Of a stretch of DNA of 64,000 nucleotides, positions 6,310 through 57,214 are shown one piece after another (positions within the stretch are counted from its first letter, which is position 1; the number at the start of each line of letters is the position of its first letter). The position numbers were made by a program, and so were the translations under genes. This DNA is from an uncultured Clostridia bacterium. Lineage in GTDB: Bacteria > Bacillota > Clostridia > Oscillospirales > QAKW01. Location: contig CALWYZ010000001.1 in the NCBI GenBank assembly GCA_944385895.1, positions 1 through 64,000 of the forward strand, in the 5' to 3' direction. Under the pieces are notes generated by a model. It ran no database searches, had not been told where the DNA came from, and was given only the letters and a program-made list of their open reading frames with translations.

Positions 6310-6315
6310 GTAAGA

Positions 6316-6530
6316 GAAGATAGAGGCGCGGAAGTTATGAGTACACCGGATAAATCAGGGAACATGCCGGGGGAAAGGAATTACGCCGAAGCTGCAGAAT
6401 ACGTCAGTTCCCGGAATACTGCGGCTGGTGCAGGACAAAATATGTCATGCACTGTCACGAAAGTGGAGAGCTATCGCAATTTGTGGTGTGTAAGTCCGCG
6501 GCAGCTTTTGCTGTCAGCGGATTTTTTTTA
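6316..6530 (+). promoter_or_regulatory. Lysine riboswitch (L-box) with transcription terminator
   Basis: The leader contains the L-box landmarks in order: GATAGAGGCGCG, the ATGAGTA loop, GGGGGAAAGGAA, ACGCCGAAG, and the 3' ACTGTCAC...GTGGAGAGCTATC segment. In this family lysine binding stabilises the aptamer and favours the terminator at 6495-6528, so the downstream transporter is made when lysine is scarce. An open frame at 6337-6537 is only the aptamer read as protein. Confidence 0.95.
6495..6528 (+). terminator. Riboswitch-controlled terminator
   Basis: TCCGC-GGCAGC pairs with GCTGTC-A-GCGGA around a TTTT loop, followed by seven T. It lies between the aptamer and the transporter gene, the expected place for the L-box expression platform. 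Confidence 0.9.
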
Positions 6531-6557: not shown

Positions 6558-8333
6558 ATGAAAAACAGAAAAATATTTTTATTTGTTGCCGTACTGCTTT
6601 GTCTGACAATGATGTTTTCAACCGCCTTTGCAGACGGTGAGGACACTGCCCGGCAAACGGCAACAGCATCTGACATGTCTGAACAAGACGTACAGGTTCA
6701 AAGCGATGCCGAGGATCCAGCCGATGCAGACTTGCAAGATGACGCTTCAAGTGTAGAGGAACAACCCGAGCAGGAATCAGCGGAGGAATATCAGAGTCCG
6801 TTTTATTCTACTATCTGGGCTCTTCTGCCGCCGCTGGTGGCGATCGTACTGGCTCTGATCACCAAGGAAGTATACTCCTCACTTTTTATCGGTATACTGG
6901 TGGGCGGCCTTTTGTGGTCCGGCTTTAATTTCGAGAGTACGATGACTCATGTTTTGTCTGACGGCTTTGTAGGCTCGCTTTCAGATAGCTATAACGTGGG
7001 TATACTGTTGTTCCTTGTTATATTGGGATCTCTGGTTGCCATGATGAACAAGGCAGGAGGTTCTGCCGCCTTCGGACGCTGGGCTGCAGAGCACATTAAA
7101 TCCAGAATGGGAGCGCAGATTGCCACAATAATACTTGGTATACTTATTTTTATAGACGATTATTTCAACTGTCTGACAGTAGGTTCCGTTATGCGCCCCG
7201 TAACGGATAAGCAGAACGTATCGCGTGCAAAGCTTTCGTACTTAATAGATGCCACAGCTGCACCTGTATGCATAATAGCCCCCGTATCGTCATGGGCGGC
7301 GGCTGTTGCCGGGTTTGCCGAAGGCTCCGGTATGAACGGATTGGAGCTTTTTGTACGTGCAATACCATATAACCTCTATGCTTTGCTCACTATTGGTATG
7401 ATGTTTGCAATTACGATCATGAAGTTTGATTTCGGACCGATGAAAAAGCATGAGGACAACGCCAAAAAAGGAGATATTTTCTCTAACGAAAAGTTAAAGG
7501 AAATGGCCGGTAGTATAGAGGGCAATCCGCGCGGCAGAGTCTATGATCTTATAGTCCCGATAGCCGTGCTTATCGTGACATGTGTGCTTGGAATGATTTA
7601 TTCAGGCGGATTTTTCACTGCCGGAGAAGAAGGGTATCATAATTTTGTGACTTCTTTTTCAAACAGCGATGCGTCTGTAGGACTTGTTTACGGCTCTTTC
7701 GGTGCATTGATTTTTGCTGTTATTTATCTTATGTGCAGAAAAGTTTTGTCATTTAAAAACTGCATGGAATCAATACCTGAGGGCTTTAAGTCAATGGTTC
7801 CTGCTATTATGATACTGACCTGTGCTTGGACGCTTAAGGCAATGACAGACAGCCTTGGCGCCGCACAGTATATACACGATGTAGTTGAAGGATCAGCGCA
7901 GGCGCTTCAAAGCTTTTTGCCCGCGATCATATTCCTTATCGCAGTCGGTCTTTCCTTTGCGACAGGAACTTCATGGGGGACATTCGGTATACTTATCCCG
8001 ATAGTTATAGACGTATTTGGATTTGACAGCGGAGAAATTACCATAATCGCAATTTCCGCATGTATGGCAGGTGCTGTATGCGGAGACCACTGCTCACCGA
8101 TATCCGATACAACAATAATGGCTTCTGCCGGTGCTCAGTGTAATCATCTTGTACATGTTTCAACACAGCTGCCATATGCTATGTTTGTTGCCGCAATATC
8201 ATTTGTAGGATATATCGTAGCGGGATTTGTGAGAAATGTATATATCACTCTAATCGTTTCCTTTGCACTGCTGCTTCTTTCACTGTTTCTTGTATACTAT
8301 CTTACAAAACGCTCTGAGAGAGTAAAAGGATAA
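6558..8333 (+). CDS. NhaC-family transporter, probable lysine transporter (LysW type)
   Basis: The 591-residue protein has an N-terminal signal-like segment (residues 1-25), a Glu/Asp/Gln-rich linker (about 26-75) and then eleven or so membrane spans of the NhaC/C4-type antiporter fold. Conserved stretches include FIDDYFNCLT, SSWAAA, TGTSWGTFG and GDHCSPISDTT. NhaC relatives exchange Na+/H+ with organic ions; those behind an L-box are predicted lysine transporters, and the lysine riboswitch here supports that. The secretion signal plus acidic extracellular linker is unusual for the family. The start ATG has AGGAGAAGGG just upstream. A strong terminator follows, so the gene forms a single-gene regulon. 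Confidence 0.88.
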   Translation: MKNRKIFLFVAVLLCLTMMFSTAFADGEDTARQTATASDMSEQDVQVQSDAEDPADADLQDDASSVEEQPEQESAEEYQSPFYSTIWALLPPLVAIVLALITKEVYSSLFIGILVGGLLWSGFNFESTMTHVLSDGFVGSLSDSYNVGILLFLVILGSLVAMMNKAGGSAAFGRWAAEHIKSRMGAQIATIILGILIFIDDYFNCLTVGSVMRPVTDKQNVSRAKLSYLIDATAAPVCIIAPVSSWAAAVAGFAEGSGMNGLELFVRAIPYNLYALLTIGMMFAITIMKFDFGPMKKHEDNAKKGDIFSNEKLKEMAGSIEGNPRGRVYDLIVPIAVLIVTCVLGMIYSGGFFTAGEEGYHNFVTSFSNSDASVGLVYGSFGALIFAVIYLMCRKVLSFKNCMESIPEGFKSMVPAIMILTCAWTLKAMTDSLGAAQYIHDVVEGSAQALQSFLPAIIFLIAVGLSFATGTSWGTFGILIPIVIDVFGFDSGEITIIAISACMAGAVCGDHCSPISDTTIMASAGAQCNHLVHVSTQLPYAMFVAAISFVGYIVAGFVRNVYITLIVSFALLLLSLFLVYYLTKRSERVKG

Positions 8334-10937: not shown

Positions 10938-12683
10938 TTATATACTGTATTTTTGCTCGTATTGCTCGTAAATACGTTCAAATTCTGCGCCGGAGCTTTT
11001 TATACGGTTAAGATATCTGTGTGTTTCAAAGCTTCCGCGTGAAATTTCGATTACAGCTGCTGAGATATTTGAGCAATGGTCTGATATACGCTCCAGGTCT
11101 GTGAGCAGGTCGTTAAAAGACAGACCCTGCTCTACGGTACATTGACCGTTTTGCAGACGGCTTACGTGGTTTTTATGCATGACAGCTGTTAACTTGTCAA
11201 TCACCTGTTCCAAAGGTTCCGTCTTTTTAGCAAGATTGGGATCATTATTCAAAAACGCGGTTACAGTTATTTCTGTTATTTCCTTTAACGCTGCTGTAAG
11301 TACAGACAGCTCGCGCATGGCGTCTGAAGAATAACCTTTGGTTTTGCTCATTAAATCGTCTGTATCAATAGTGATATGAAGAGCATGGTCGCACATACGT
11401 TCAAGATCGCTGACTGTATATATCATACGCGAGACACTGCTGCTGTCTTCAGCGGATATTGATTTTTCCGCAATTTTTACAAGCCCTGTTAAAAGCATGT
11501 CCTGATACATATCCGAGAGCTTTTCGTTTTCGGTTATTATTTGAGTTGCTTTACTCTTGTATGACATTATCTGATCAAGTGCAGATATAACGGTCGATTG
11601 CGTCAGTCTTGCCATATCCCGTGTACGGGACATGCATTCGCTTACTGCAATTGACGGAGAAAGAAACAATCTTTTGTCAAGTGTCGGGATATCCGGTTTT
11701 GATTCTTGTGAATCTGTAATTATTCTGCAAATGAGCTTTTCCAGACTTTTTGTAAATGGCAAAATTAAAAGCGTAGCCAAAACATTGAATGCGGTATGTG
11801 CGACCGCAATACCTACAGGGCTTATAGAGGTTGAGAAAAATGCCCAGTCAGTGGAATATCTCAATATCTCAAAAATTGTAAAAAATACTACCGTGCCTAT
11901 AACGTTTACAGCGGTGTGTGCTGCCGCTACACGTTTGGCGTTTTTGCCGCTGCCTATGCAGGACAGTAAAGCGGTAATACATGTGCCTATGTTCTGTCCC
12001 ATTATTATAGGCACAGCCGTTGACCAGCTTACCGCTCCTGTAAGGGCAAACGCCTGCAATATGCCTACAGAAGCAGATGATGATTGAATTATTGCCGTTA
12101 TGACTATTCCCGCAAACAGACAAATAAACGGATTTTCAAATTTGACCATAAGCGATGCAAACTGCGGTGTATCGGCAAGTGGGCTTACAGCCCCTGTCAT
12201 CAGCTTCATCCCGTATATAAGTACTGAAAACCCGATAAGCACCCGGCCTGCATCCCGCTTGCGTCCATTTTTGGATATCATTATAAGTATTACGCCTATC
12301 AATGCCAAAAAAGGAGTAAAGTTTTCAGGCTTTAACAGCGATACAAAAATATTTTTGCTCTCAATACCCGCAAGGCTCAAAATCCAGGCAGTAAATGTAG
12401 TGCCGATATTAGCTCCGAAAATAATATACAGAGTGCCTGTAAATTGCATTATTCCCGAATTTACAAGCCCCACCAGCATGACAGATGTAGCGGATGAAGA
12501 CTGTATCAGCATGGTTATAACAGTTCCCAGTAAAATGCTTAAAGCCGGTTTTTGCTGTGTCTTTTTTAATATTCGCTCAAGCTTTCCTCCGGCGGTTTTT
12601 TCAAGGTTTTCTGACATCATCAGCATACCGAACAGGAAAAAAGAAATGCCGCATATAAATTGTATAACACTGTAAATATCCAT
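10938..12683 (-). CDS. Na/Pi cotransporter family protein with C-terminal PhoU-like domain
   Basis: The 581-residue protein has the duplicated Na/Pi symporter core, each half with a QSSSA signature (IQSSSATSVMLVG near 60; IQSSSASVGILQA near 200). About nine membrane spans end near 320, and a helical PhoU-like region covers about 350-575. It probably imports phosphate with sodium, the PhoU part sensing or regulating. ATG at 12683 has a GAGGTG ribosome site. About 100 bp upstream lies an intrinsic terminator, and beyond it a glmS ribozyme on the same strand, a context I cannot explain by phosphate transport. Confidence 0.9.
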   Translation of the reverse strand: MDIYSVIQFICGISFFLFGMLMMSENLEKTAGGKLERILKKTQQKPALSILLGTVITMLIQSSSATSVMLVGLVNSGIMQFTGTLYIIFGANIGTTFTAWILSLAGIESKNIFVSLLKPENFTPFLALIGVILIMISKNGRKRDAGRVLIGFSVLIYGMKLMTGAVSPLADTPQFASLMVKFENPFICLFAGIVITAIIQSSSASVGILQAFALTGAVSWSTAVPIIMGQNIGTCITALLSCIGSGKNAKRVAAAHTAVNVIGTVVFFTIFEILRYSTDWAFFSTSISPVGIAVAHTAFNVLATLLILPFTKSLEKLICRIITDSQESKPDIPTLDKRLFLSPSIAVSECMSRTRDMARLTQSTVISALDQIMSYKSKATQIITENEKLSDMYQDMLLTGLVKIAEKSISAEDSSSVSRMIYTVSDLERMCDHALHITIDTDDLMSKTKGYSSDAMRELSVLTAALKEITEITVTAFLNNDPNLAKKTEPLEQVIDKLTAVMHKNHVSRLQNGQCTVEQGLSFNDLLTDLERISDHCSNISAAVIEISRGSFETHRYLNRIKSSGAEFERIYEQYEQKYSI

Positions 12684-12782: not shown

Positions 12783-12815
12783 AAAAAAACCGCGCAATAA
12801 AAAGACCGCGCGGTT
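12783..12815 (-). terminator. Terminator directly downstream of the glmS ribozyme
   Basis: On the minus strand AACCGCGC (12815-12808) pairs with GCGCGGTT (12795-12788) and runs into a T7 tract. It lies about 40 nt after the ribozyme's 3' end and about 100 nt before the Na/Pi symporter start. Confidence 0.9.
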
Positions 12816-12851
12816 TTGTGTGGAAAGTTATATTTATAATTGAGTTTTTAC

Positions 12852-13001
12852 TGTATTGCACACCTGTGCTTTTGTCCGACAGTTGCCTATCGGGTTTGTT
12901 CACAGGCTAACGACGGCAATTTTGCCGCCGGGAGGGTTCCCGCCGAAAATTTCGATAATCCCTCCGCCTCGTTAACCAAGAAAATATTTTGGTCTGGCGC
13001 T
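12852..13001 (-). ncRNA. glmS ribozyme (glucosamine-6-phosphate activated), not next to glmS
   Basis: On the minus strand the catalytic core is clear: AGCGCCAGACC at the 5' end, then AACGAGGCGGAGGG, ATTATCGAAATTTTCGGCGG, CCCTCCCGG, a P3-type hairpin GGCGGC/GCCGTC, and the P4 region with AGCCTGTG...ACAAAAGCACAGG. These match the glmS consensus, including the ATCGA and TTTTCGGCGG core strands. Cleavage is expected between 13001 (A-1) and 13000 (G+1). In the family, GlcN6P acts as coenzyme for self-cleavage, and the trimmed glmS mRNA is then degraded. Here the next gene is a Na/Pi symporter beyond a terminator; no glmS is in the window. Confidence 0.92.
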
Positions 13002-13025
13002 TTTAAAACCTCCGAAAAATAATAC

Positions 13026-13064
13026 TACCCACCTTTCATTTAAAATATAACATAAAGGTGGGTA
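13026..13064. promoter_or_regulatory. Operator-like inverted repeat centred on the ribozyme promoter -10
   Basis: TACCCACCTTT at 13026-13036 and AAAGGTGGGTA at 13054-13064 form an 11-bp perfect inverted repeat whose axis falls at the -10 box. Only one arm lies in the transcript, so it is not an RNA hairpin; a dimeric repressor site is the simplest reading. I do not recognise the regulator. Confidence 0.6.
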
Positions 13065-13072
13065 AATGTCAA
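13044..13072 (-). promoter_or_regulatory. Strong SigA-type promoter of the glmS ribozyme transcript
   Basis: On the minus strand TTGACA (13072-13067), a 17-bp spacer and TATATT (13049-13044). RNA would start near 13037, about 36 nt before the ribozyme cleavage site. The ribozyme is therefore an independent transcript and not just the 3' UTR of the ATPase gene ending at 13083. Confidence 0.85.
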
Positions 13073-13082
13073 TTTTAAGCTG

Positions 13083-15200
13083 TTATTTTCGTGCACTGAA
13101 TATAATTATTTGGTTATTATGGGAAATTTTTTCAGTAACTTTGCGTGCTGATTTGAGTCTTTTGTCGTCCAGCGACCAGAACGGATCGTCCATTATCAAA
13201 GGCAAGCCGCTTTTTTTTGATATCAGCTGGCAGACGGCGACGCGCACAGAGAAATATACGGCATCCGCAGTTCCGCGGGAAAAGTACCCCAGATCGTACA
13301 TGGTGCCATTGTGCTTTACACGCAGATTGAATTGTCGGTCAAGAGTAATGCTGTCATATTTTCCGTCTGTTATTTCAGACAGCGGCTGTTTTGCACATTC
13401 AGTAAGCATTGGCGCAAATTTAGAGCTGATATACTCATACGCCTCCAAAAGCGCCTCTCTTGCGATTGTAAGTACGCTGTCCTGATATTGTGCGTTTTTA
13501 AGCTCGTCTTGCAGCTCATCTTTTTTTTGACTTATTTCAAACAGGCTGCGTTTGACACGGTTCAGCTCTGCTTCTTTTTCATTTAATTTAGTGATTTTTT
13601 CTGAAATATTGGACTGCTCATCTTTTATGTTCAGCAGCAGATTTTGTATTTCGCTTTCGGTATACTTACAATCTCCGAGTTCAGCTTGAGCTTTGAGCTG
13701 TTCAAGGGTGGTGTCGCACAGCAGCTCGCTTCGCTTTTCTTTAAGTACCGCAATATTGTTTTCTAGCACCGCCTGCTCCTGAAGCTGGTTTTTCAAATGC
13801 TCAATTTCGCGGGCGTCTGTGATTTTATATTTTTCCTCAATCTGCCGGCATACGGCAAAGCTGTTTTCAAGTATTTGCTCGCATCTGTCATATTCTGAAA
13901 CGGCGCTTTCGTATTCGTATCTGAGTTTTTGGAGCAGTTTATCACTCTCTTTAAATTGTTCATAGCAGCATTTAAGCTCAGACAGTGACATGCCGTAGTC
14001 TGACGGCACTTTAACTTTGCTTTTAAAGATTATTCCGGCAGCTGTAACTGCCGCGCCTATAACAGCAGCTGCCGCCCCTGTGAGTAAATGTGATGACATT
14101 ATTAACGCTGTGCCTACTGCCGCGATAATAATTCCTGCTGAACAGAGTGCAGCATTAGGCCGTGGCTTTTTTGAAAACAAAATAAGCAGTTCTCTTTCGT
14201 TTTGACGAATATTATTAAATCTTGAAAATTCTTTTTCCGCTTTTTTAAGTGCTGATTCAGTATCGTTTACTCGCCCGAAAGCGGATTCTTTCCGTTTGGT
14301 GTTGATTTCAAGTTCAAGATATGCTTTTGAAATTTCATCAATAGCATTTTGATCTATGCCGGTCTTTTTAAATTGTTCGATCCTGTCGCTGATGCTTTTG
14401 ATATTCTGTTCTGTATGGGCAATGTTTTCCAGCCTGCGCCGGGCGTCTGCGCTTTTTGCAAGCGGGAGTAAATCCTTGTATTTTTTTTCTTTTTCTAAAA
14501 GCTGAGTATATTGTTGCTTTAACTGCAAAAGCTCCGTGTCAAGCCTAAATGTGCTGTCGCTCACCCGGCGTTTTGCCGCCAAGTCCAGCTCTAATTGAGC
14601 AATCTGCTTTTTTAGGTCAAATATACGTCCGGATTGTCTGTCGATATGCCTGTATTTGCTGTTTTTTCTGCGAAGCGTTTCTGCAGCAGCTTCATAAGAG
14701 GTGTCTTCATCGCCTGTGGTTACAAGATTTTTCAGAGCAAGCTCCAGTCCGCCGGTGCCTGAAAATTTAATGTCGGTCTGGCGTATCAGGAAAGTACGCT
14801 CAAACGTCTGTCTATCTACGCCGAATATAAGCTTGCCGGGAGAATCTTCGATGTCAATAGAGGCACCTGTCGCGTCTCTCACGGTCACACTCTTTTTTCT
14901 GCCGTCGTTCTGCACTCGTTCAATCCGTAAAAATCTGCCGTCACAATCTATTTCTATTGCTCCTGCAAGTATCGCCTCTGAGTTCCACGGTAAATATTTT
15001 TTTAGCAGATTTTCCTCAAGCTCTGTTTTTTTTGATGCGATCTTGGTAAATCCGTAAAGTATAAATAAAATAAAATCCGCTATCGTGCTTTTCCCGAATT
15101 CATTTTCACAGATCAACTCATTCAGTCCTGGTTTTAGATCCAGGGTATAGTCTTTGAATTTTCCGAACGATGTTATTTCCAGTCTTTTTATTACAGTCAT
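13083..15200 (-). CDS. YhaN/SbcC-like SMC-type ATPase
   Basis: The 705-residue protein has an N-terminal AAA_27-type ABC half with a Walker A variant CENEFGKST (31-39), long coiled coils, a two-span hydrophobic patch around 345-395 and a C-terminal half with Walker B LPLIMDDPF and a D-loop S-L-D. This layout fits YhaN-type proteins of Firmicutes, SbcC/Rad50 relatives with a membrane patch in the middle. Its start overlaps the end of the nuclease gene by four bases (ATGA), as sbcC follows sbcD. Together they probably process DNA ends. Family level is certain; the exact substrate is not. Confidence 0.85.
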   Translation of the reverse strand: MTVIKRLEITSFGKFKDYTLDLKPGLNELICENEFGKSTIADFILFILYGFTKIASKKTELEENLLKKYLPWNSEAILAGAIEIDCDGRFLRIERVQNDGRKKSVTVRDATGASIDIEDSPGKLIFGVDRQTFERTFLIRQTDIKFSGTGGLELALKNLVTTGDEDTSYEAAAETLRRKNSKYRHIDRQSGRIFDLKKQIAQLELDLAAKRRVSDSTFRLDTELLQLKQQYTQLLEKEKKYKDLLPLAKSADARRRLENIAHTEQNIKSISDRIEQFKKTGIDQNAIDEISKAYLELEINTKRKESAFGRVNDTESALKKAEKEFSRFNNIRQNERELLILFSKKPRPNAALCSAGIIIAAVGTALIMSSHLLTGAAAAVIGAAVTAAGIIFKSKVKVPSDYGMSLSELKCCYEQFKESDKLLQKLRYEYESAVSEYDRCEQILENSFAVCRQIEEKYKITDAREIEHLKNQLQEQAVLENNIAVLKEKRSELLCDTTLEQLKAQAELGDCKYTESEIQNLLLNIKDEQSNISEKITKLNEKEAELNRVKRSLFEISQKKDELQDELKNAQYQDSVLTIAREALLEAYEYISSKFAPMLTECAKQPLSEITDGKYDSITLDRQFNLRVKHNGTMYDLGYFSRGTADAVYFSVRVAVCQLISKKSGLPLIMDDPFWSLDDKRLKSARKVTEKISHNNQIIIFSARK

Positions 15201-16240
15201 TTTGAGCTCCTTATCGCTAAAACGCCTTCTTTTATCGCGTCAAGTATTTGCTGACGTTCGGATTGCTGTGCATTTTCCAGCCTGTGCAGAAGTATGTCCA
15301 CAAATTTCCCTTCAAGCGTGTTTTCTCCGGCACTTTTGAAAATGTCCGTATCGATTGTTGTTTCGTCTTTGATTTGTATAAACGACTCCTTAATATATTC
15401 TGTCAATACGTCACAGTCAATATCAAACGGTTGTTTAAGCTTGCCGACAAGTACAGCTCTTGCGATTTCATTTTCCTGCGGCTTGATTTTAAATAGTATA
15501 TCCATCACCTGAGCTATTGAGCTGCAGCTGCTTATATCTGCTGTATACTCTCTGTATATTTTCGAGTCTGTATTAACATATGTATAGCTGAAATCATCCG
15601 TATCGATAACATAAAAGCCTTTTTGGCCGCATTCATCAAAACCGTGTCCGAAAGGGGTACCGGCGTACAGGGCACGGGTACCGTTGGGAAGAAATATTGA
15701 CTGAGTTTTGTGTATATGACCCAAAAGGGAGAGTGCCGCCCCGGTCTGGGCCAGAGAACTCGGGTTAAGAGAAAATCCGCCCTTACCGGACAGGGTGCCG
15801 TGGGACAGTGTTATAAATTTACCGTCACCGCAAAATCCGCTCCATGGGTCCGGGGCTTCAAATGCATCTGAAAGAGAAATGCCGTAAACTGATATGTCTT
15901 GCATATCGGCTTTGGTTATGCTGTCGGGAAAAACAAAAAGATTTTCGGGCGGATTATTATAGAAATCGGTCATACTGAGCGGGTCATGATTTCCGCAAAC
16001 AGCCATAAATCGAATGTCGCTGTGGCTTTCAAAAACCCTATATACCGCCGCCTTTACATTCTCGTTTGGGTATGGCGTGTCAAACATATCACCGCCCAAA
16101 AGAATATATTTTATGCCGCTTTTGTCAGCATAGTCCGCAATTCTGCCAAAATCCATTACAAGCTGGCGGTTTCTTAAGTCGGCATTTTCATTTATAAATT
16201 TACATCCAAAATGTGTATCTGCGGTAAATATGAATTTCAT
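15197..16240 (-). CDS. YhaO/SbcD-like metallophosphoesterase (DNA exonuclease)
   Basis: The 347-residue protein has the calcineurin-like metal motifs TADTHFG (7), LLGGDMFD (48), CGNHD near 85, LSHGTL and LGHIHKTQ. The domain order equals SbcD/Mre11 and YhaO nucleases, the partners of SbcC/YhaN ATPases. ATG at 16240 has AGGAG, which overlaps the stop codon of the upstream DUF554 gene, so the three genes form an operon. Length is shorter than E. coli SbcD (about 400), as usual for YhaO-like forms. Confidence 0.88.
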   Translation of the reverse strand: MKFIFTADTHFGCKFINENADLRNRQLVMDFGRIADYADKSGIKYILLGGDMFDTPYPNENVKAAVYRVFESHSDIRFMAVCGNHDPLSMTDFYNNPPENLFVFPDSITKADMQDISVYGISLSDAFEAPDPWSGFCGDGKFITLSHGTLSGKGGFSLNPSSLAQTGAALSLLGHIHKTQSIFLPNGTRALYAGTPFGHGFDECGQKGFYVIDTDDFSYTYVNTDSKIYREYTADISSCSSIAQVMDILFKIKPQENEIARAVLVGKLKQPFDIDCDVLTEYIKESFIQIKDETTIDTDIFKSAGENTLEGKFVDILLHRLENAQQSERQQILDAIKEGVLAIRSSK

Positions 16241-50607: not shown

Positions 50608-51477
50608 TTATTTGGAATATACGGTATCTGCGTATTTTTTAAGATTTTCAAGTCCGATCTGAACGCCTTTTACGCAGTCTTCCATACCCTCAAATTCAAT
50701 AGCTATATAACCGTTATAACCTGCGTTTTTCAGTGCATAAAGACATTGCGTTATTGGAACATCGCCGTGTCCGATTATGGTGCCTCTAAGAAAATTGCCG
50801 CCTCTGGACATAAAAAACCCAGCACCCGGGTTGGGAGATTGGCCGCTCTTGACAATAAAATCCTTGGCATGTACATAAAATGCATATCGTGCCGCTCTGC
50901 CGACAGCGATTGCCGGATCATCGTCTGCGCACAGAAAGTTACCCATGTCAATAAGCCAGCCAAAATTGTCATGCGCTACAGTGTTTATAAGCTTTTCTAC
51001 CCGCATGCTGTCCTGAGAAAAAAAGCCGTGGTTTTCTGTCATGGTTTTAATCCCGATGCTTTTTGCGTACTCGGTCACCTTGCGGCAGCCGTATGCCAAA
51101 CGGCTGACAACGTTGTCATATCCCTCATAATGATTTGCTGTCTTTCCGCTGCATACATCGTGGCGCATTAAAGGACTGCCCAGAATTTTTGCGATATCGA
51201 CCTGTGAGCATACACGCTCAATTTCTTTTTCGATATCGCCGCCGCTTCCGTTCAAAAAATCCGCAGATACGGCATAGTTGGAAATTTCTATCCCGGTTTG
51301 AGCGGCATGCAGGGCAAGCTGTTTTGCGGTTTCCGTGGCATTTTGACCCAATGCAGAGTCCGTAAATTCTATACCGTCAAACCCCATTTCCTTGACCTTT
51401 GTTATACAGTCTGTAATGGAAAGTTTGCCGATTTTTAAATATTGAGAAAAGCTGTATGAGCTTACAGAAAATTTCAT
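50608..51477 (-). CDS. Sugar phosphate isomerase/epimerase-family TIM barrel (AP_endonuc_2)
   Basis: The 289-residue protein begins MKFSVSSYSFSQYL and has the xylose-isomerase-like barrel with metal-binding E/D/H residues: GIEFTDS near 35, TMTENHGFF near 142, L-I-D-M-G-N near 172, YVHAKD near 197 and a final AIEFEGMED near 259. These enzymes isomerise or epimerise keto-sugars or act in inositol and keto-glycoside breakdown. It is one of three such barrels in this 5-kb cluster but not a recent copy of the others. ATG at 51477 without a strong ribosome site. Confidence 0.88.
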   Translation of the reverse strand: MKFSVSSYSFSQYLKIGKLSITDCITKVKEMGFDGIEFTDSALGQNATETAKQLALHAAQTGIEISNYAVSADFLNGSGGDIEKEIERVCSQVDIAKILGSPLMRHDVCSGKTANHYEGYDNVVSRLAYGCRKVTEYAKSIGIKTMTENHGFFSQDSMRVEKLINTVAHDNFGWLIDMGNFLCADDDPAIAVGRAARYAFYVHAKDFIVKSGQSPNPGAGFFMSRGGNFLRGTIIGHGDVPITQCLYALKNAGYNGYIAIEFEGMEDCVKGVQIGLENLKKYADTVYSK

Positions 51478-51581
51478 GTTATTACCTCATATTTACGTAG
51501 AACCGTTTGGTTTTACGGGAATATCGAATTTCATTTTATTTAAATTGTCAAATACCGTATTTAAAAGTATTCTCGGCTGGT

Positions 51582-55612: not shown

Positions 55613-57214
55613 ATGAAATTGACATTTTTGGGTGCCGCTCATGAAGTGACCGGCTCATGTACGCTTCTTGAGGCGTGCGGATATAAAATACTTATTGACT
55701 GCGGTATGGAGCAGGGGCAGGATATTTATGAGAACTGCCATATACCGATTTCTGCAAATGAAATTGATTGTATATTTCTCACCCATGCGCATATAGATCA
55801 TTCCGGAAAGCTGCCTGCTTTGGCAAAGGATGGATATGAAGGACCGGTATATGCAACATATGCCACGCATAAGCTGTGTGATATCATGCTCAAGGATTCG
55901 GCGCATATTCAGGAATTTGAGGCTGAGTGGCGCAACCGAAAGGCAAAGCGCTCAGGGGAAAAGGAGTATGTTCCTATATACACAATGGAGGATGCCGAAA
56001 ATATACTTTCATGCTTTAAGCCGTGTGATTACGGAAAAGAATATCAGATCCTTGATTGTATAAAAGCCCGTTTTCTGGATGCGGGACATCTGCTGGGCTC
56101 ATCGAGTATAGAAATTACTGTGACGGAAAATGATCAGACCCGTACGTTTTTGTTTTCGGGTGATATCGGGAACATTTCTCGGCCCCTTATACGTGATCCT
56201 CAGAAACCTGATAAGGCGGATATAGTTGTAATAGAATCGACTTATGGAAACCGTCTGCACGGAGAGCGCCCGGACTATGTCAGTCAGCTGACCCATATAA
56301 TACAGGATACTTTTGATAGAGGCGGAAACGTTGTCGTTCCGTCATTTGCCGTGGGCAGAACACAGGAGCTTTTATATCTGATACGCGATATAAAAGATAA
56401 AAATCTGATAAAAAATCACGATAATTTTCCTGTCTGGGTAGACAGTCCCATGGCTGTTGAGACAACGCATGTCTATTCCAATGACATGATGGATTATTAT
56501 GACAGCCAGACCCTGGAGCTTCTGAAAGCCGGAATAAATCCTATTTTGTTTGACGATCTAAAGCTTGCAGTTACAAGCGACGACTCCAAAATGATAAATA
56601 ATGACCAGACCCCGAAAATCATACTTTCTGCCTCCGGTATGTGCGAGGCGGGGCGTATACGCCATCATTTAAAGCATAACCTGTGGCGAAGCGACAGTAC
56701 GATTCTGTTTGTCGGGTATCAGACTGAGGGTACTCTCGGAAGAAAGCTTTTGGACGGGGCTCAAAGCGTAAAGCTTTTCGGTGAGGAGATAAGCGTCAGG
56801 GCTCATATAGAACAGATGGAAGGTATAAGCGGACACGCGGATAAAAATATGCTTCTTGGCTGGCTTGCAAATCTGAAAAACACGCCCGAAACCGTATTTG
56901 TCAATCACGGCGATGACAGTGTCTGCGATGAATTTGCACAGCAGATTATGAGTGTTCTCAAGTTTCCTGAGGCCGTGGCGCCCTATAACGGCGCGCAGTA
57001 TGATATAACAAAACATGTTTGTATTTACGGCGGCAACAGGCAAAAGATAGTCAAATCAGGCGGCAGCGCAAAGATAAGTGAGGCGTTCAGAGCTCTTATG
57101 GAGGCCGGAAAGCGTCTTTTGCGAGTTATCGAACATAACAGAGGCGGAGCAAACAAAGATCTTAAAAAATTTACAAAGGAAATTGACTTACTTTGCCAAA
57201 AGTGGGACAGATAA
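55613..57214 (+). CDS. MBL-fold beta-CASP ribonuclease
   Basis: The 533-residue protein has the metallo-beta-lactamase HxHxDH motif LTHAHIDHSGKL near 57-68, D-A-G-H-L-L-G-S near 157, F-S-G-D-I-G-N near 182, a beta-CASP domain (VVVPSFAVGRTQELLY near 242 and S-A-S-G-M-C-E-A-G near 340) and the C-terminal G-I-S-G-H-A-D-K motif. Members act as RNA exo/endonucleases (CPSF73-like). The C-terminal tail of about 70 residues after the RMMBL motif is not conserved in my memory. Promoter not clear; a terminator follows. Confidence 0.93.
   Translation: MKLTFLGAAHEVTGSCTLLEACGYKILIDCGMEQGQDIYENCHIPISANEIDCIFLTHAHIDHSGKLPALAKDGYEGPVYATYATHKLCDIMLKDSAHIQEFEAEWRNRKAKRSGEKEYVPIYTMEDAENILSCFKPCDYGKEYQILDCIKARFLDAGHLLGSSSIEITVTENDQTRTFLFSGDIGNISRPLIRDPQKPDKADIVVIESTYGNRLHGERPDYVSQLTHIIQDTFDRGGNVVVPSFAVGRTQELLYLIRDIKDKNLIKNHDNFPVWVDSPMAVETTHVYSNDMMDYYDSQTLELLKAGINPILFDDLKLAVTSDDSKMINNDQTPKIILSASGMCEAGRIRHHLKHNLWRSDSTILFVGYQTEGTLGRKLLDGAQSVKLFGEEISVRAHIEQMEGISGHADKNMLLGWLANLKNTPETVFVNHGDDSVCDEFAQQIMSVLKFPEAVAPYNGAQYDITKHVCIYGGNRQKIVKSGGSAKISEAFRALMEAGKRLLRVIEHNRGGANKDLKKFTKEIDLLCQKWDR

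Follow-up and report, generated by a model that had tools for sequence, protein, structure and literature searches.

The ribozyme locus

The locus described here raises a simple question: what does a glmS ribozyme do when no glmS gene follows it? The window, a 64,000-nt stretch of DNA from an uncultured Clostridia bacterium (genome G000; 1.95 Mb, 30 contigs, 99.8% complete), had been described in an initial annotation as carrying, on its minus strand, an intact glmS ribozyme with its own promoter and terminator, followed by a Na/Pi symporter gene. Our answer is that the RNA is most likely a self-cleaving, GlcN6P-sensing, trans-acting sRNA.

The RF00234 search proposed in that annotation (run with cmscan) returned a match at 12852-13012 (-) with 86.5 bits and an E value of 1.6e-18, far over the gathering score of 37. 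The alignment spans model positions 1-167 of 167, i.e., a full-length glmS ribozyme. By sequence and structure the RNA is a member of this family, of which GlcN6P dependence would be expected, and self-cleavage is expected between A13001 and G13000. The promoter (13072-13044) was likewise found as described, and so was the symporter gene (12683-10938), instead of glmS, as the next co-directional gene. The terminator, AACCGCGCGGTCTTTTTATTGCGCGGTT-TTTTT at 12815-12783, went uncalled by a scan with a loop limit of 8 and was confirmed by a looser terminator script. The parts of the locus are listed below; G002 belongs with G000 (and also G001) to genus g1, and G006, G009 and G011 are the ribozyme-bearing genomes of genus g3.

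13044-13072, minus strand: sigma-70 type promoter, TTGACA-17-TATATT, with 11/12 consensus matches; kept in G002
13001-13037, minus strand: RNA 5' leader, from the approximate transcription start, as placed from the promoter position, to the cleavage site
12852-13012, minus strand: glmS ribozyme (RF00234, 86.5 bits); core kept, P4/P4a covarying over five stand-alone copies
12850-12859, minus strand: tail pairing site 1, GCAATACAGT, complementary to ACTGTATTGC (10/10)
12817-12838, minus strand: tail pairing site 2, TATAAATATAACTTTCCACACA, complementary to TGTGTGGAAAG(CG)TTATATTATA, an 11-nt perfect core plus extension
12783-12815, minus strand: intrinsic terminator at the end of the stand-alone RNA, a AACCGCGC/GCGCGGTT stem followed by a T-run
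10938-12683, minus strand: Na/Pi symporter gene with PhoU domain (NF037997, PF02690, PF01895), next co-directional gene
13083-15200, minus strand: SbcC/Rad50-like ATPase gene (weak NCBIfam and Pfam matches), upstream neighbour, the same in G002
15197-16240: SbcD-like gene (weak NCBIfam and Pfam matches), beside the SbcC/Rad50-like gene

GGAGG occurs in the short leader of the RNA, shortly before the cleavage site (window ~13008-13013). This motif precedes the cleavage site in four of the five stand-alone RNAs and lies within 45 nt in 27/92 glmS-linked ribozymes; it is possibly a 5' stabiliser. An inverted repeat, CCCACCTTT...AAAGGTGGG (window 13028-13062), surrounds the -10 box of the ribozyme promoter, is conserved in G002 and is a possible operator. 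Elsewhere in the window, a lysine riboswitch (RF00168, 76.1 bits) occupies 6313-6481 (+), in front of a gene for an NhaC-type transporter (6558-8333).

Location of glmS

The glmS gene of G000 lies on a contig other than that of the ribozyme (G000:C15:56896-58692, 726.6 bits). The operon there reads glmU-like gene, glmS, glmM, with a gap of 20 bp between the first two, and an Rfam search with the permissive cutoff of E<=1 gave no RNA family at the glmS locus. The initial annotation had asked where glmS is and whether a second ribozyme accompanies it: it stands in a ribozyme-free operon, and the RF00234 search of the whole G000 genome returned a single match, the copy in the window. We also considered, and rejected, an assembly break beside glmS. 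Such a break is unlikely because the ribozyme sits 12.9 kb inside a 169-kb contig, because G002 shows the same neighbours and because glmS follows the glmU-like gene by 20 bp inside an intact operon.

Stand-alone layout in the family

The comparison with relatives that had been suggested was carried out in this small family of gut Clostridia, where the evidence comes from five ribozyme-bearing species, all draft or metagenome assemblies. The ribozyme stands alone in all five of these genomes, and it does so at unrelated loci in the two genera. In G002 an SbcC-like gene lies upstream and a Na/Pi symporter gene downstream, as in G000. In the three g3 genomes the ribozyme is found near malQ and a CPBP-type gene, is preceded by TTGACA-17-TATACT and has convergent genes downstream, and the terminators behind it differ in sequence from that of the window. 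With the same script, a terminator was called within 130 nt behind the ribozyme in 4/5 stand-alone copies versus 5/92 linked ones; the fifth stand-alone copy, G009, has a terminator hairpin that was recognized by eye (gaacccccggagaattattctccgggggttc). An identical copy of the G009 sRNA occurs in another metagenome-assembled genome (L126), which has no full-length glmS and adds no independent case.

In G001 (genus g1, 99% complete) no ribozyme was detected, and its locus could not be traced by synteny. A search of G001 and G003 for a hidden sRNA through the tail motif YTTTCCACACA returned only the leader itself and coding-like sites.

Selection on the ribozyme

The failure to find a ribozyme in at least one almost complete genome of the family (G001), together with the stand-alone position, would fit a transcribed but functionless relic, left behind when glmS moved away. 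The state of the RNA speaks against this. We took as reference the 35 positions that are at least 95% conserved in 92 glmS-linked ribozymes: the window copy, whose core had been called intact, retains 33 of them and the other four stand-alone copies (78-87 bits with RF00234) 33 or 34. One of its two changes, an A before ACGAGG, also occurs in 4/92 linked ribozymes. All five copies have the conserved core motifs that surround the site of cleavage (A/GCGCC, ACGAGG, ATCGA, TCGGCGG). Across these copies 96.7% of cells in helices P4 and P4a are paired and 8 of the 12 pairs have changed on both sides, a level that no shuffle and no slid register matched. Between G000 and G002, identity is 87% in the ribozyme and 91% in the terminator, compared with 47% in the stretch from the terminator to the Na/Pi gene.

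Because of the helix covariation, and because ribozyme and terminator are conserved over a flank of 47% identity, we regard the unit as under selection as a stand-alone RNA. The covariation shows selection acting after the separation from glmS. Promoter, terminator and a matched tail (see below) are moreover kept at unrelated loci, and we consider a functionless relic very improbable. The initial annotation had likewise argued against a dead remnant, and intact cores, P4/P4a covariation and species-matched pairing of tail and leader all agree with it. Its suggestion of a leftover from a relocated glmS holds in one respect, as the RNA may well derive historically from a glmS 5' UTR parted from its gene; the covariation and the matched tails argue against it as a dead remnant.

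Complementarity between the tail and the glmS leader

In 5/5 genomes the sequence joining ribozyme and terminator (the tail) shows complementarity to the 5' leader of the distant glmS operon. The tail of G000 contains two such runs (11 + 10 nt; GCAATACAGT and CTTTCCACACA against ACTGTATTGC and TGTGTGGAAAG). The target of site 1, ACTGTATTGC, lies at the beginning of the leader of the glmU-like-glmS-glmM operon (G000:C15 ~55751-55760), and that of site 2 (G000:C15:55762-55784) forms the 5' arm of a hairpin in which the first gene's start codon is hidden. The order of the two g1 sites is incompatible with one continuous duplex. The complementary runs of the other genomes are ACTTTCCACACA in G002 (12 nt), CTCAAAATACAGTAT in G006 (15/15, against its own glmS leader, in the tail part corresponding to site 1), CAGCACACAATCA in G011 (13 nt) and, by eye, GCACACAATCAACAATG against CATCGTTGACTGTGTGC in G009 (15/17 nt). 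CACACA with UGUGUG forms the common pairing core, shortened to GACACA in G006, and the paired flanks vary between species with alterations on both sides.

Duplex z values range from -3.3 to -4.8 against shuffled controls in each genome. The g3 tails each prefer the leader of their own species, and the two g1 tails prefer g1 leaders. A target scan of 862 kb of G000 (44% of the genome, both strands) ranked the glmU-glmS-glmM leader first of 28,619 windows; a weaker match at 51360-51480 of the window had appeared in a first background scan. The leaders of G004, G005, G007, G008 and G010, family members in which no ribozyme was detected, do not have the tail-binding site. The leader of G001 (L087/L111) keeps both the site and the start-codon hairpin despite the lack of a detected ribozyme. 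Judged from these comparisons, the complementarity to a separately encoded mRNA is significant and coevolving, and pairing of tail and leader appears well supported.

Could the module instead control the Na/Pi symporter in cis, by readthrough of the terminator, and be complementary to the glmS leader only by coincidence? The gene adjoins the ribozyme in G000 and G002 only, which share this order, and G001 and G003 lack both. However, the terminator lying between ribozyme and gene is GC-rich, the region from there to the gene has only about half the identity seen in the ribozyme (47% versus 87%), and the tail's best match among all windows scanned is the glmS leader. As a general target the Na/Pi gene was rejected, and the readthrough reading of the initial annotation finds no support as a general function, since in g3 the promoter-ribozyme-terminator unit precedes convergent genes. 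We give this explanation very little credence.

Leader structures and the predicted effect of pairing

In every leader a hairpin sequesters the start codon (g1) or an antiterminator strand (g3), and the pairing site either overlaps its 5' arm or lies next to it. Leader promoters match the consensus at 11-12/12 positions in G000, G009 and G011. The g1 leader begins approximately at the pairing site, behind the promoter TTGACA-17-TAAAAT, and its start-codon hairpin has a predicted stability of -8.8 kcal/mol in G000 and -9.8 in G002. When the tail site is blocked in the fold model, openness of the AUG rises from 0 to 0.57 (G000) and from 0 to 0.83 (G002). In the same model the SD pairs with downstream sequence, and its unpaired probability falls from 0.8 to 0.29 (G000) or 0.05 (G002). 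The sign of the effect in g1 is uncertain because the model that frees the AUG sequesters the SD.

The g3 leaders contain intrinsic terminators ahead of glmS. By eye we recognized a three-part switch: hairpin P1, an antiterminator strand that P1 holds in its 3' arm, and a partner for this strand on the 5' side of the terminator stem. Strand and partner are AGCGAGAG/CUUUCGCU in G009, CAGCGAAAG/CUUUCGUUG in G011 and CGCAACGAGG/CUUUUCGUUGUG in G006, and UGUGUG lies in or just before the 5' arm of P1. In folds of the leader cut before the 3' arm of the terminator, blocking the sRNA site raises the antiterminator probability from 0.25 to 0.98 (G009) and from 0.02 to 0.93 (G011). A sliding control in G011 gives high values only when the block covers the 5' arm of P1 or the extreme 5' end; G009 is less selective. 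In G006 the antiterminator forms in the truncated fold with or without the site blocked, so that an effect there must come through P1, which precedes CUUUUUU and which pairing would break.

The same sRNA and target could also be used in the opposite sense, with the 5' leader of the sRNA masking the tail until GlcN6P-induced cleavage frees it to repress. Repression by the cleaved form would likewise amount to negative feedback. In the g1 RNAs (G000 and G002) partial pairing of the tail with the 5' leader of the same RNA is indeed predicted, and openness of the G000 tail increases from 0.44 in the intact RNA to 0.66 in the cleavage product. In addition, the end of the g1 duplex is only a few bases away from the SD, which the model does not open. 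Yet the g3 tails are predicted to be open already before cleavage (0.69-0.85) and hardly change afterwards, the sites fall on the 5' arm of repressive hairpins rather than on the start codon or the SD, and with the sites blocked the folds of G009 and G011 shift towards the ON structures. We therefore regard repression by the cleaved RNA as unlikely, and activation by the intact RNA as the better reading.

Proposed mechanism

We consider it probable that the locus is the gene of a trans-acting sRNA which is cleaved in response to GlcN6P and whose intact form switches on the distant glmS operon. A stand-alone RNA sensing GlcN6P was among the readings of the initial annotation and is favoured by the sequence comparisons; its proposed action through the tail on the glmS leader is an aspect which that annotation had not seen. 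Computation establishes the ribozyme, its transcription unit, the complementarity and its coevolution, and the overlap with repressive hairpins; what we infer, as follows, are expression and intracellular pairing as well as the direction of the effect, self-cleavage and decay. The RNA of ~255 nt would consist, after its promoter, of a short 5' leader, the glmS ribozyme, a largely unstructured tail of 35-50 nt and the intrinsic terminator. The tail would base-pair with the leader of the glmS operon, which is transcribed elsewhere in the genome: in g1 with the 5' arm of the hairpin hiding the start codon of the first gene, in g3 at or beside the 5' arm of P1, the 3' arm of which is the antiterminator strand. 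Pairing is expected to turn the operon on in both genera. When GlcN6P is plentiful, the ribozyme would cleave itself and leave a 3' product with a 5'-OH. In Gram-positive bacteria, RNase J1 degrades the 5'-OH products of glmS ribozymes (PMC7967978, citing Collins 2007). A 5' exonuclease such as RNase J could thus destroy the product here, returning glmS to its off state. The outcome would be GlcN6P feedback in trans, the same negative feedback that a cis ribozyme exerts.

Ribozyme contexts in the order and class

How unusual is a glmS ribozyme apart from glmS? A survey by McCown et al. 2011 reportedly located all but two of 463 glmS ribozymes in glmS mRNAs. We examined 72 ribozymes in the order, 62 of them with glmS just downstream, and another 89 in the class, with glmS in the locus in 85. 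Together, 147/161 lie with glmS, and five of the 14 exceptions come from this family. Two others, L074 (G290) and L080 (G251), belong to order-level relatives and lie upstream of nagB, one copy of which was identified by TIGR00502 and the other by similarity of the gene start. In both genomes the ribozyme directly precedes nagB (glucosamine-6-phosphate deaminase), and in G290 glmM follows. In these two genomes NagB may stand in for GlmS, running synthetically under the same ribozyme. L221 (G567) is upstream of a glmU-like gene and glmM, with no glmS in the locus. Three ribozymes come directly after glmM or a glmU-like gene and are not followed by glmS: L066 (G100), which is followed by a hairpin, L077 (G265), with a damaged core (AGCAAA for AGCGCC), and L032 (G085). 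The last three, L211 (G321), L196 (G328) and L216 (G447), have no clear downstream gene and could be further orphans or relics; the cleavage-site core of L216 is changed to AGCGTTT.

Comparison with known systems

With the usual glmS ribozyme (RF00234) the present RNA shares its class, a complete core, the expected GlcN6P-dependent cleavage and the 5'-OH product. The usual ribozyme is part of the glmS 5' UTR and acts in cis, whereas this one forms a separate, terminated transcript with the gene elsewhere. In its action it would resemble the GlmZ/GlmY system of E. coli with RapZ, where the glmS mRNA is bound by an sRNA encoded in trans and ample GlcN6P leads to destruction of this sRNA (PMC7073468). 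The present RNA would likewise act in trans on the glmS message and be lost at ample GlcN6P. In E. coli, however, the sensor is the RapZ protein and RNase E cuts, while here sensor and cleavage would reside inside the sRNA. We claim no sequence relation to GlmZ. A GlmZ-like opening of the leader is predicted by the folds for P1 in G009 and G011 and for the AUG in G000 and G002, not for the SD; G006 is ambiguous. The workers on E. coli had at first suspected a riboswitch-like GlcN6P sensor in the GlmY/GlmZ system (PMC7073468).

Ligand-binding RNAs with targets encoded elsewhere have also been described. SreA and SreB derive from riboswitches terminated upstream of a gene, SreA pairing with prfA mRNA, and Rli55 and EutX sequester the EutV protein (PMC8383071). 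Unlike the RNA proposed here, they are not self-cleaving ribozymes, nor does any of them act on the gene that its class normally controls in cis. Some functional riboswitches away from related genes had been noted by Barrick and Breaker (2007; PMC2258182), who guessed that they act as trans antisense RNAs or were recently orphaned. No earlier report of a trans-acting or orphan glmS ribozyme was found in the literature searched, with subscription journals mostly outside that search. The family described here probably provides the first natural metabolite-activated self-cleaving ribozyme employed as a trans-acting sRNA, with its own lifetime set by cleavage and with two expression platforms for glmS, start-codon opening and antitermination, in one family. 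It offers a concrete, testable case for the idea of Barrick and Breaker, in that sensor, effector tail and target are all readable from the sequence, and it adds to the few riboswitch RNAs that act in trans. If our reading is correct, a cis ribozyme can turn into a trans regulator of the same gene, and the GlmY/GlmZ circuit would have a Gram-positive counterpart.
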